NCBI GenBank assembly: GCA_026989175.1
Contig: JALSJT010000180.1
Coordinates: 1 to 45,647 of the forward strand
Source of the DNA: Thiomicrorhabdus sp.
Lineage (GTDB): Bacteria; Pseudomonadota; Gammaproteobacteria; Thiomicrospirales; Thiomicrospiraceae
Direction: 5' to 3'
DNA length: 45,647 nt
Shown here: positions 1 through 42,232 of the stretch, piece after piece
Position numbering within the stretch: the stretch's first letter is position 1
Layout: every line of letters begins with the position of its first letter
The notes under the pieces: model-generated
Seen by the model: only the letters and a program-made list of their open reading frames with translations
What the model was told of the DNA's origin: nothing
Database searches by the model: none
Translations under genes and position numbers: made by a program

Positions 1-1
1 C

Positions 2-484
2 GTATGTAATGGTTGTCAGATGCTCTCGAATTTAAAAGAGATTATTCCCGGTGCCGAAAGTTGGCCAGCGTTTGTGCGCAACGAATCCGAACAATTTGAA
101 GCACGTTTTTCACAAGTGGAAATTCAACCGTCACCTTCGATTTTATTACAAGGCATGGAAGGCACGCGTATCCCCGTCGCCGTGGCACACGGAGAAGGGC
201 GCATGGACTTTGGCACTGGTTCTGCCAGCGAGGTAGAGGGGTTGGTTGGCTTACGCTATGTCGATGCCACAGGTCAAGCAACCGAACGTTACCCGTTTAA
301 TCCAAATGGCACCGAAGGGGGAATGACTGGACTCACCACAACGGATGGTCGTGTCACAATTATGATGCCCCATCCTGAGCGCGTCTTTAGAACCGTGCAA
401 AATTCATGGGCTCCAGATGACTGGACAGGTGAAGATGCTCCATGGATGCGTTTGTTTAGAAACGCCCGCAAATGGGTTGGATAA
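2..484 (+). CDS. purL: Phosphoribosylformylglycinamidine synthase, C-terminal (glutaminase) part, truncated at window start
   Basis: Open frame from base 2 reads [17 protein letters not shown]...[11 protein letters not shown]...[10 protein letters not shown]...[21 protein letters not shown], characteristic of the PurL glutaminase domain. Confidence 0.95.
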
Positions 485-518: not shown

Positions 519-563
519 GGGGGGAGAAAAAATTACATTGAAATTTTTCTCCCCCCTTTTTTT
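519..563 (+). terminator. Intrinsic terminator downstream of purL built from an inverted pair of the G6-AGAAAAAWTT motif
   Basis: GGGGGGAGAAAAAATT-acattg-AAATTTTTCTCCCCCC followed by TTTTTTT. Confidence 0.85.
541..556 (-). repeat. G-tract motif site (GGGGGGAGAAAAATTT)
   Basis: Inverted partner of the + strand site at 519-534. Confidence 0.8.
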
Positions 564-5213: not shown

Positions 5214-6917
5214 GTGGAAATGACTGGTGCCCAAATTCTGATCCATTATTTGGAAGATGAGGGTGTAGAACATTTATGGGGGTATCCCGGTGGAGCAGTA
5301 TTGCCGATCTATGATGCCCTAGATACGGACGCTAAAAACTTAAGCCATATATTGGTGCGTCACGAGCAAGCTGCGGTACATGCTGCTGATGGTTATGCTC
5401 GTTCTACAGGTAAACCAGGAGTGGTTCTTGTAACTTCCGGTCCAGGAGCGACCAATGCTGTAACAGGCATTGCCACCGCTTACATGGATTCAATTCCAAT
5501 GATTTGTATTACGGGTCAAGTTCCAACAGGAATGATTGGCTTGGATGCGTTTCAGGAAATTGATACGGTGGGTGTAACAAGACCAATTGTAAAACACAAC
5601 TTTTTGGTCAAGAATGTCGATGATCTTGCTAGCACGCTCAAAAAAGCGTTTTACCTAGCCACAACAGGCCGACCTGGCCCCGTTGTCATTGATATTCCAA
5701 AAGATGTACAAAACGCCAAAAGCACATATGCATTCCCTCAAGAAGTTGAAATGCGCTCCTATTTGCCGATAACAAAAGGACATGGTGGACAAATTAAGAA
5801 AGCGGTTGAAATGATGCTTTCATCCAAAAGACCTGTTTTATATACAGGCGGTGGTGTGATTTTAGGCGATGCCTCGGCTGAATTGGTTGAACTCACCCAT
5901 AAGTTAGGTTTTCCGATTACGCAAACCTTGATGGGGTTGGGTGCCTTTCCAGCCTCGGATAAACAATCCGTTGGGATGTTGGGAATGCACGGAACCTATG
6001 AAGCTAACTTATCGATGCACAACAGTGATTTGATTATCGCTATTGGCGCACGTTTTGATGATCGTGTGACGGGGAATTTAGAGAAATTTTGTCCCGATGC
6101 GAAAATCATTCATGTGGACATTGACCCCGCTTCGATCTCTAAAAATGTTTTAGTAGACATTCCGATTGTTGGCCCTGTTAAGCAGGTGTTAACGGAAATG
6201 TTGCGTATTTTGGATAAAACGGATTTAACCATGGATCAAGAGGCGTTGGATGATTGGTGGCTTCAAATTGAAGGTTGGCGTGCCACAAATTGCCTGCGTT
6301 ATGATAGTGCGGGGGTTAAAATCAAGCCACAGGCGGCTGTTGAAGCGGTTTGGAAGTCCACAAAGGGTGACGCATATGTGTCATCGGATGTAGGTCAGCA
6401 TCAAATGTTTGCCGCACAATACTACCCATTTGATAAGCCGCGTCGTTGGTTGAATTCAGGTGGACTTGGCACAATGGGCTTTGGTCTACCCGCCGCAATG
6501 GGTGCGAAGATGGCGTTTCCAGATGAAACGGTGCTTTGTATTACGGGTGAAGGTTCGATTCAGATGAATATTCAAGAGTTGTCAACCTGTTTGCAGTATG
6601 GTCTTTCGGTCAAAATAATCTGCTTAAATAATGGTTTTCTTGGCATGGTTCGCCAGTGGCAAGAGTTCTTTTATGAGCGACGCTACTCGATGTCTTATAT
6701 GGATTCGTTACCCGATTTTGTTAAGTTGACAGAGTCTTATGGGCACGTTGGTATTCGTATTGATGATCCAAAAACATTGCAAGCTCAATTGGATGAAGTG
6801 TTCTCAGAGAAGTATAAAAATCGCTTAGTTTTTGTCGATATTATTACCGATCAGCAAGAGAATGTGTACCCAATGATTCCAGCGGGTGCTGGTTTGAATG
6901 AAATGATTTTGGTATAG
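5214..6917 (+). CDS. ilvI: Acetolactate synthase large subunit (GTG start)
   Basis: [64 protein letters not shown], ThDP-binding [29 protein letters not shown]. Confidence 0.95.
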
Positions 6918-8659: not shown

Positions 8660-9760
8660 ATGTCTCAAGATATTTTTTCTTCTCTGGTGGGTGATGGTGT
8701 TGCGATGCAACAGGTCAAAACCCTAGTTCAGCAAGTTGCACAAACTGATGCAACGGTACTTATTCTAGGTGAGTCGGGTACGGGTAAAGAGGTGGTTGCA
8801 CAGGTGTTGCATGACCTATCTGAACGTTCAGATCGTGCATTTGTACCGATTAATTGTGGTGCCATTCCTGCTGAGTTGCTTGAAAGTGAACTGTTTGGTC
8901 ATGAGAAGGGGGCTTTTACAGGTGCGATTACGGCTCGAAAAGGTCGTTTTGAAATGGCAGAGAAGGGCACTATTTTTTTAGATGAGATTGGCGACATGCC
9001 ATTGCCTATGCAGGTCAAGCTATTAAGAGTCTTACAAGAACGAACCTATGAGCGGGTGGGGGGGAATAAAAGTTTTCAGTGTGATATTCGAGTGATTGCC
9101 GCGACCCATCGCAATTTAGAGGAGAGAATTGAAGCGGGTGAGTTTAGAGAGGATCTCTTTTACCGTTTGAATGTGTTTCCGATTGAGATGCCCTCTTTGC
9201 GAGAGCGACCAGAAGATATTGAGGCGTTGCTTGACTTTTTATTTAAGAAAATTCAAGAGGCTGGGCGAAAAGTCCCTACGCTAACAGAGAGAGCGATAAT
9301 CGCCTTGCAGCACTATCACTGGCCTGGAAATGTCAGGGAGCTGGGGAATTTGGTTGAGCGGCTCTCTATATTGTTTCCGGGGGTAACCGTTGATTACGAT
9401 AAACTCCCTAAGAAATACCAAATTCCTATCCCAGACGATGCTCAGTTAATCAAGCCTGCAAAAAGTTCAGAAGCGATCCCCGTTGACCCTGTGCAAGGGG
9501 GGGGAGAAAAAACGTCAACTGTTCAAACGCAGGATACGACAAAAGATGCTATTGAGGCGCAACCTGTCGCTACACCAGCCACGACACCTGCCGATTTAAA
9601 AGGTGGGATTGATTTAAAGTCGTATCTCGTTGACATGGAGGTACAACTGATTCAGCAAGCGTTGGCACAAACGGAGGGGAATGTCTCTCAAGCGGCAAAG
9701 TTATTGCAGACTAACCGGACGACACTGGTTGAAAAAATCCGAAAATATGAGCTGACTTAA
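8660..9760 (+). CDS. Sigma-54-dependent Fis-family regulator, FleQ/FlrA-like but without an N-terminal receiver-like domain
   Basis: AAA+ domain starts almost at the N-terminus; GESGTGKE Walker A, GAFTGA loop, C-terminal Fis [30 protein letters not shown]; followed by FleS/FleR-like genes. Confidence 0.88.
9058..9074 (+). repeat. G-tract motif site (GGGGGGGAATAAAAGTT)
   Basis: Inside FleQ-like CDS. Confidence 0.6.
9497..9514 (+). repeat. G-tract motif site (GGGGGGGGAGAAAAAACG)
   Basis: In the AAA+/HTH linker of the FleQ-like CDS. Confidence 0.8.
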
Positions 9761-18193: not shown

Positions 18194-18210
18194 AAAATTT
18201 TCCCCCCCCC
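18194..18210 (-). repeat. G-tract motif site (GGGGGGGGGAAAATTTT)
   Basis: fliJ-fliK intergenic. Confidence 0.75.
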
Positions 18211-30332: not shown

Positions 30333-31511
30333 TTGAAAATAAAACGTTATTTTGCACCCTCCATGCGTTTAGCCATGAACTTAGTTCGTGAGGAGCACGG
30401 TGACGATGCTGTGATATTGTCCTCTAAAGATGTGGAAGGGGGGGTGGAGATTGTTGCCGCTTTAGACCCAGAAGCGGTGTACTATCAAGAGACGCAAGAG
30501 CGTCCTCCGACAACGGCAAGAAGCTCTTATCAAAGTCCAGAACACGCTGCGCCATCCCCAGTAGGGGGGGGAGAAAATAATCAAGCCTTAGCTGGAATGG
30601 CTGCAGAGATACAAGCAGTGAAAGCGATGCTTGAAAATCAGTTGTCTGGTTTGGCTTGGGGGCATGAAGAGCAGCATGACCCTCATAAAGTAGAGCTGAT
30701 TAAAAAACTATTGCAACTGGGGATTGGTTGGAATCTGAGCCAAAAACTGGTACAACGTATTGATGCAAAAAGTCACCAGGCATGGACGACAATTTTGGCC
30801 AATATGGAACGCGATATTCTCGTTGAAGAACGTGATATGATTGAGCGAGGTGGCATTATTGCCCTAGTGGGGCCTACGGGCGTGGGTAAAACCACTACCA
30901 TTGCAAAAATTGCCAGCCGTTTTGTGATGCGAAACGCCCCGCAAGAGCTTGCATTAATCACCACAGATTGTTATAAAATTGGGGCTCAAGCACAGCTAAA
31001 AACATTTGCTGATTTAATTAATGTTCCGGTGCATGTAGCCGCCACGCAAGGGGAGCTTTATGCCCTATTAGCCTCGTTAGGACATAAGAAAATGGTGTTA
31101 ATTGATACCGCAGGAATGAGTCAAAGAGACTTGCAACTGTCACAGCAATTAACCTCAGGGCATGAAGGCGCAACCAATGTACGTAATTATTTAGTCATGT
31201 CTGCTGCAACACAACTTAACGTTATGAGTGATATTGTGGACTCATTTGGTCGAATCGTGTTAAAGGGTTGTATTTTAACCAAAGTAGATGAAGCGTTGCA
31301 GTTAGGCAATATATTAACCCTATTAATTGAAGCACAACTTCCCATTGCATTGTTATCTAGTGGGCAACGAGTACCAGAGGATTTAGAAGTGGTAAGAAGT
31401 AGAGAGCTGATTGACCGAGCCATTGTGTTAGGACATCAAAACAAGCGTTCTTCTCAAGATGAACAAGCCTTCCGTATGGGAATGGGAAAGGAGGTCACGG
31501 ATGCTCAATGA
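30333..31511 (+). CDS. flhF: Flagellar GTPase FlhF (TTG start)
   Basis: MKIKRYFAPSMRLAMNLVREEHGDDAVILSS; IALVGPTGVGKTTTIAKIA; ITTDCYKIGAQAQLKTFA. Confidence 0.95.
   Translation: MKIKRYFAPSMRLAMNLVREEHGDDAVILSSKDVEGGVEIVAALDPEAVYYQETQERPPTTARSSYQSPEHAAPSPVGGGENNQALAGMAAEIQAVKAMLENQLSGLAWGHEEQHDPHKVELIKKLLQLGIGWNLSQKLVQRIDAKSHQAWTTILANMERDILVEERDMIERGGIIALVGPTGVGKTTTIAKIASRFVMRNAPQELALITTDCYKIGAQAQLKTFADLINVPVHVAATQGELYALLASLGHKKMVLIDTAGMSQRDLQLSQQLTSGHEGATNVRNYLVMSAATQLNVMSDIVDSFGRIVLKGCILTKVDEALQLGNILTLLIEAQLPIALLSSGQRVPEDLEVVRSRELIDRAIVLGHQNKRSSQDEQAFRMGMGKEVTDAQ
30564..30579 (+). repeat. G-tract motif site (GTA-GGGGGGGG-AGAAAATA)
   Basis: flhF linker. Confidence 0.8.
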
Positions 31512-39988: not shown

Positions 39989-40147
39989 GAGACCTTTGCA
40001 CGAGAGGGGCGCGAGAGAAAAAAAGGATGAAATTTGGCTGATTGAGGCGTAAATCGTAGTGAATACCTAGGTATTCGCAAGATTTTCAACAAAAATCAGG
40101 CGTATTTCAGCCTTTTTTATCCGTGCATCCTTTCGTGCAAAGGTCTC
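39989..40147. mobile_element. MITE-like inverted-repeat element, copy 2
   Basis: GAGACCTTTGCACGA ... TCGTGCAAAGGTCTC perfect 15-bp ends, 159 bp, no ORF, central palindrome GAATACCTAGGTATTC. Confidence 0.88.
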
Positions 40148-41717: not shown

Positions 41718-41734
41718 GGGGGGGGAGAAAAATG
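41718..41734 (+). repeat. G-tract motif site (GTA-GGGGGGGG-AGAAAAATG)
   Basis: Serves as the nrdR SD and reaches the start codon. Confidence 0.85.
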
Positions 41735-42232
41735 CACTGTCCATTTTGTAATGCGCCAGAAACCAAAGTCGTCGATTCGCGTTTAGCGACCGAAGGGGCA
41801 CAAGTTCGACGACGCAGAGAGTGTATGGGGTGTGGCGAGCGTTATACCACCTATGAAACCGCGGAACTCTCACTGCCCAGAGTGGTAAAAAGTGATGGAA
41901 ACCGTGAAAAATTTGATGAACAGAAGATTCGCAAGGGGCTGATTAAAGCGTTAGAAAAACGCCCCATTGAAAGTGATGAGATTGATCGCGTTGCCAGTCA
42001 AATTACCAAGCGTTTGATGACCGAAGGGGTACGAGAGATTCCGTCGAATACCTTGGGTGAGTGGGTAATGGAAGCGTTGCAAGAGCTAGATCAAGTGGCG
42101 TATGTTCGTTTTGCATCGGTCTACCGTTCATTTCAAGATGTGAATGCGTTTCAAGAGGAGATTGATAAATTAGTCAAAGCCACACGTGCGAAAAGTATGA
42201 GCGGCAATGCAAATAATGGTTATAAAAGTTAA
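41732..42232 (+). CDS. nrdR: Transcriptional repressor NrdR
   Basis: [45 protein letters not shown] 41732 preferred over the tracked start 41660. Confidence 0.96.

Follow-up and report, generated by a model that had tools for sequence, protein, structure and literature searches.

The described systems closest to the element studied here are the uptake sequences of two bacterial families, the only ones in which a review places such sequences (PMC5031613). The uptake sequence of H. influenzae (USS) is aaAAGTGCGGTnrwwwwwnnnnnnrwwwww, and Kingsford and colleagues reported, for both Neisseria and the Pasteurellaceae, +- pairs of uptake sequences with preferred separations and A/T tails; about 17-29% of terminators contain a USS, a share that reaches about 55% in Neisseria (PMC1852404). 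The Neisseriaceae counterpart, the DUS, comprises ATGCCGTCTGAA and its dialects (PMC3630211), occurs in thousands of copies and has a known receptor, ComP. Our literature search found no uptake sequence reported outside the Neisseriaceae and Pasteurellaceae, and no paper joining uptake sequences with Thiomicrospira or Thiomicrorhabdus. Here, we describe a hairpin 3' of purL in a Thiomicrorhabdus genome. The reading that we favour, and consider somewhat better than an even bet, is that it is an intrinsic terminator formed from two convergent copies of a dispersed repeat, and that this repeat is most likely a DNA-uptake-type sequence.

The window, i.e. the whole stretch of 45,647 nucleotides that was analysed, is part of a draft genome of 1.98 Mb in 212 contigs, whose nearest named relatives in a PurL comparison are Thiomicrorhabdus and Hydrogenovibrio. 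The contig start falls within purL, and the end of this gene is followed by the hairpin:

20 to 484, + strand: 3' part of purL, with the GATase_5 domain of phosphoribosylformylglycinamidine synthase (PF13507, E 2.9e-53)
482 to 484, + strand: purL stop codon TAA, read directly
519 to 534, + strand: 5' arm of the hairpin, the first copy of the dispersed G-tract motif GGGGGGAGAAAAAATT, which fits the motif consensus
519 to 524, + strand: G6 of the first arm, read directly
525 to 534, + strand: AGAAAAAATT of the first arm, read directly
535 to 540, + strand: hairpin loop ACATTG, read directly and seen in the RNA fold
541 to 556, - strand: 3' arm of the hairpin, the second copy in opposite orientation (GGGGGGAGAAAAATTT on the - strand)
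541 to 550: AAATTTTTCT of the second arm, read directly
551 to 556: C6 of the second arm, read directly
557 to 563, + strand: T7 tail of the predicted intrinsic terminator, read directly

Read directly, positions 519-563 thus hold two convergent repeat arms, a 6-nt loop and then T7, so that the structure claimed in the sequence-only reading (a stem of two opposed motif copies, the 6-nt loop and the T7 tail) was exact to the base. The second arm in full is AAATTTTTCTC6, facing G6-AGAAAAAATT, and the stem consists of 13 contiguous pairs, one A.A mismatch and 2 further pairs, with which the RNA fold concurs. The folding energy is -29.6 kcal/mol, compared with a mean of -14.3 for 200 dinucleotide shuffles (z -5.07), none of which folded as well. 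The hairpin lies in sense orientation, with a spacing of 34 nt from the purL stop codon to the G-tract, and combines a stable GC-based stem with an immediate U-run. Judged by position, strand and form, it would be a textbook intrinsic terminator of purL, which presumably ends transcription of the gene, and such pairs are presumably retained for that role. It shares the GC stem, the short loop, the T7 tail and the place directly 3' of a stop codon with ordinary intrinsic terminators but differs from them in that a repeat found throughout the genome supplies both of its arms and its upper stem is a long A/T segment. The hairpin is absent from the output of a simple terminator scanner. The purL pair was not present at the same place in any relative read, and in one of these (G018) that position holds a hairpin of the ordinary kind, unrelated to the pair and bearing a T-run. 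Separately, purL is divided over two contigs (window positions 1-484 and G000:C195:8439-8546); because these overlap by at least 108 bases, the split is most likely an assembly break rather than a biological duplication.

The repeat can be written as A-G(5-10)-A(G/A)AAAWTTT. Allowing at most one mismatch, GGGGGAGAAAA occurs 7 times in the window compared with 1.1 expected, a count attained in none of 100 shuffles. The genome has 130 copies (67 + 63 by strand) compared with 20 (9 + 11) for the reversed control, which bears out the dispersal of the motif proposed from the window's letters. Four single copies in the window illustrate its settings:

9497 to 9510, + strand: single copy, G8-AGAAAA, within a sigma-54 activator gene (8660-9760)
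18198 to 18210, - strand: degenerate single copy, G9-AAAATTTT
30564 to 30577, + strand: single copy, G8-AGAAAA, within a gene with an SRP54-type GTPase domain (30333-31511)
41718 to 41731, + strand: single copy, G8-AGAAAA, adjoining the likely true nrdR start codon (ATGCACTGTCC)

The gene at 30333-31511 appears flhF-like and seems to lie in a flagellar neighbourhood. The nrdR start was placed by the conserved MHCPFC start of NrdR and is likely correct at this position; because the adjoining copy sits directly 5' of it (AGAAAAATGCACTGTCC, within 41718-41740), the repeat probably doubles there as a ribosome-binding site, for which its GGAG could serve. Comparable AGAAAAATG arrangements were seen at further genes (L049:5676 and L048:11826). 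A general role of the repeat as a ribosome-binding site was dropped, since an ATG lies 3' of only some copies, even though the nrdR copy probably serves in this way.

Copies were aligned from 1.24 Mb of fetched contigs, which hold most copies and were partly picked for carrying the motif; because many were chosen for this reason, densities in this sample are inflated, while comparisons made within it are fair. The consensus opens with an A-rich lead, G5-10 (mode 8) and A(G/A)AAA; T prevails at +6..8, A forms a weaker peak at +11, and positions +18..22 are an A/T block. The G-tract spans 5 to 11 in individual copies. Hairpin partners were kept out by considering copies inside ORFs without a downstream C-run. 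In this unpaired genic set, A/T content is 87% at +4..8, dips at +14..17 and reaches 69.5% at +18..22, compared with 53.4% in the far flank (P 3e-12). G-tracts of the same sample that lack a following A(G/A)AA show no A/T block at +18..22. Since the unpaired genic copies keep the second block and other G-tracts are without it, the repeat is roughly 25 bases long from the core start, and its two A/T blocks are separated by roughly one turn of the helix. Tracts of G7 or longer, of which there are 326 in these 1.24 Mb of partly selected contigs, are rare in the relatives sampled.

Using gene models that were simple longest ORFs and not a curated annotation, 156 copies in the 1.24 Mb were assigned to ORFs (90) or intergenic regions (66), at 0.08 per kb in genes and 0.53 between them, so that the repeat is 6.7-fold denser in intergenic sequence of this sample. 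The copies in ORFs occupy all frames and both orientations, and neighbouring copies on the contigs, which do not form a closed genome, have no preference for co-orientation (41 of 80). The excess of the motif near gene ends expected from the sequence-only reading did not hold for single copies: regions between convergent (tail-to-tail) genes make up 12% of intergenic bases and contain 14.5% of the copies (8/55). The excess did hold for pairs, as all three exact pairs of this genome with a readable context lie 3' of a gene with T7 on the right strand. Between co-directed genes, intergenic copies run against the genes in 27 cases and with them in 10 (P 0.008), which places the C-run in the transcript; this bias perhaps represents avoidance of G-runs or of spurious ribosome-binding sites in mRNA.

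Defining an exact pair as GGGGGAGAAA, 4-30 bases and TTTCTCCCCC, we detected 12 convergent pairs among the six motif-bearing genomes of the genus, where the motif density, once corrected for intergenic clustering, predicts 0.63 (Poisson P about 4e-12), and none in the other 26. Divergent pairs number only 3. In all 12 convergent pairs the core-to-core gap is 10-17 nt, although 4-30 was permitted, and the loop sequence differs in every one, so the pairs arose separately and are not copies of one element. In 6 of the 12, at least one strand has T5 no more than 6 nt from the C-tract; a strong T-run is missing from the remaining pairs, so a terminator role need not apply to all of them. The genome studied here has 4 exact pairs, and the 3 that are readable in context (519-563, C15:6081 and C66:2529) are those noted above as lying 3' of genes, and in every one of them the sense strand carries the T7. 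The pairs therefore look like terminators made independently by reuse of the repeat. A genome-wide search for further inverted pairs, suggested along with the original proposal, had a positive outcome in this genome and its clade, and the proposal that the purL terminator was built from an inverted pair gains support from the spacing, the excess of pairs, the T-tails, the post-gene position and the independent origin in relatives. Divergent inverted arrangements, with the C-run first, also exist at L044:3454-3483, L050:70-101 and L031:15115-15165; when folded, those at L050 and L031 are very stable, but no T-tail immediately follows the stem.

The distribution of the repeat is narrow. GGGGGGGARAAAWTT is present in 41-73 copies in each of 6 of the 32 genomes of the genus and has no copy in the other 26, and elsewhere in the order a single copy was found in 1 of 31 genomes. 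The six motif-bearing genomes cluster on a tree of a single gene, purL, with support 0.80. When motif sites of relatives were aligned to this genome, at about 70-80% identity, 5 of 12 had kept the motif and 7 had not, the count being approximate because two loci overlap (self matches were excluded); sites therefore come and go individually. Viral contigs contained no exact match to an 18-base consensus. A different, palindromic word, ACCAGGCCTGGT(A), reaches up to 759 copies per genome in some Thiomicrorhabdus with zero for reversed controls. It is patchy in the genus, being seen in G001, G012, G029, G013, G008 and other genomes, and lies mostly inside genes. In a search of sister genomes for an alternative dialect, this word was recovered from G001 and G012 but not from G021; all six genomes with the G-tract motif have 0 copies of it. 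The word may belong to the iterated palindromes or represent a further uptake dialect.

Compared with the Pasteurellaceae USS, the repeat has the same order of parts: an A-rich lead, a rigid core containing G, a purine with an A/T block, a spacer and, about one turn of the helix further along, another A/T block, i.e. the phased blocks of that class. Like the USS, it is both genic and intergenic, occurs in both orientations and forms +- pairs at a preferred spacing that would make terminators with A/T tails. The parallel drawn in the sequence-only reading with paired uptake sequences acting as terminators in Neisseria and Haemophilus therefore holds in detail (PMC1852404), and by analogy the purL element would work like a USS-derived terminator. 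However, the USS core AAGTGCGGT or ACAAGCGGT is not matched by the repeat, whose core is G5-10 A(G/A)AA, and the repeat is therefore not a Pasteurellaceae USS. Its core is unrelated and homopolymeric, with a G5-10 of variable length; there are about 130 strict copies compared with 900-1,500; and its host belongs to another order of Gammaproteobacteria. As an uptake sequence, it is a candidate. With the Neisseriaceae DUS, it shares a clade-specific, dialect-like spread and inverted pairs at terminators, but its sequence is unrelated, the CTG-containing 10-12-mer core of the DUS is not matched, and the extended DUS motif of PMC1852404 lacks a second A/T block. Highly iterated palindromes of the HIP1 type are likewise clade-specific, over-represented short words; the repeat is not palindromic, however, and the ACCAGGCCTGGT word of the sister species would be closer to that class.

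G-run/C-run stems are common in bacterial terminators, and pairs 3' of genes bear T-tails, so the purL hairpin could be an ordinary terminator of this kind and the dispersed motif a mere reflection of many of them. This is very unlikely, given that the copies are mostly unpaired, with a C5 within +8..45 in only 10 of 156 and 90 of the 156 inside ORFs, and that close relatives have terminators but not the motif. The unpaired genic copies, which retain the A/T block at +18..22 and hence the extended motif, largely refute this explanation, and we rejected the view of the motif as a terminator artefact because the majority of copies have no partner and many are inside ORFs. A short, conserved, dispersed and clade-specific word could also be a site of the Chi, KOPS or matS type, bound by a protein that organises the chromosome or repairs DNA, with some of its copies recruited into terminators, and the draft state of the assembly precludes replichore mapping. 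Chi and KOPS are strand-biased, whereas neighbouring copies here show no co-orientation (41/80 on contigs, on which basis strand-polar sites were rejected) and the strands are equal (67/63); moreover, it would be unusual for such sites to reach about 100 copies in a single clade and be missing from sister species. We regard a protein-binding site as unlikely.

The variable tract length (5 to 11), together with G7+ tracts that are common here and rare in the sampled relatives, would suit a mutational product, that is, G-runs grown by slippage under altered repair or phase-variable contingency tracts. Slippage, though, is unable to make the 3' A(G/A)AAAWTTT and a second A/T block 18-22 bases off, or convergent pairs at fixed gaps, and the window's genic copies lie in housekeeping or flagellar regulator genes rather than in surface genes; such an origin is quite improbable. 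Still harder to credit is an origin as a small mobile element or as one end of such an element, even in a genome with a genuine small repeat family that has GAGACCTTTGCACGA ends and a palindromic ATACCTAGGTAT centre: the G-tract repeat is conserved over about 25 bases and no further, its flanks and the loops of the pairs all differ, and copies lie within ORFs in all frames and both orientations. The small dispersed element with GAGACCTTTGCACGA ends, whose palindromic centre also reads GAATACCTAGGTATTC, is found in the window at about 5573-5645, 40062-40133 and 43009 and on many contigs, with dozens of copies in the genome, and is probably a MITE-like family.

Our preferred reading, an uptake-type repeat whose convergent copies gave the purL terminator, suggests the following course. 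The repeat would accumulate by biased uptake and recombination within one Thiomicrorhabdus clade, and close convergent pairs would immediately form a GC-stemmed hairpin, the A-rich lead of one copy supplying a T-tail on the other strand. Because convergent copies would give the GC stem at once and the lead the T-tail, we infer that some pairs were then retained as terminators. The repeat has several traits of the uptake class: it is an over-represented short word with balanced strands (67/63) and both genic (90) and intergenic (66) copies, and its convergent pairs are in excess (12 vs 0.63), with gaps of 10-17 and T-runs in 6/12. The genome encodes ComEC/Rec2 (TIGR00361), DprA (TIGR00732), and PilT and PilU (TIGR01420), all above cut-off. 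A profile search for a FimT/GspH receptor (PF12019) found none in the clade, the model being a weak one with one marginal match in the ten genomes searched. Caution over the class comes mainly from the low copy number, 130 strict copies in about 2 Mb compared with 927-1,965 in known genomes (PMC1852404), a number that rises if degenerate G7+ tracts are counted. We hold with moderate confidence that the repeat may be spread and maintained by sequence-biased DNA uptake, and at this point we regard a new uptake sequence as a good hypothesis suggested by sequence comparison rather than a result. That it represents a third, independently evolved uptake-sequence system beyond the Neisseriaceae and Pasteurellaceae, built on a homopolymeric G-tract as core together with phased A/T blocks and confined to one Thiomicrorhabdus clade, seems to us an evenly balanced proposition. 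Given that sister species carry ACCAGGCCTGGT, which is fully missing from the motif clade, uptake dialects may have been exchanged within one genus.

The uptake-type reading gives a hint that a third group of bacteria has a DNA-uptake signal not reported so far. If true, a third case with shared architecture and an unrelated core would amount to convergent evolution of sequence-specific transformation, and the paired terminators would mark reuse of the tag in transcription termination as a general by-product, not a peculiarity of two families. The origin of an uptake tag and its receptor could then be studied within one genus, in which some sister species bear the motif and others are free of it.
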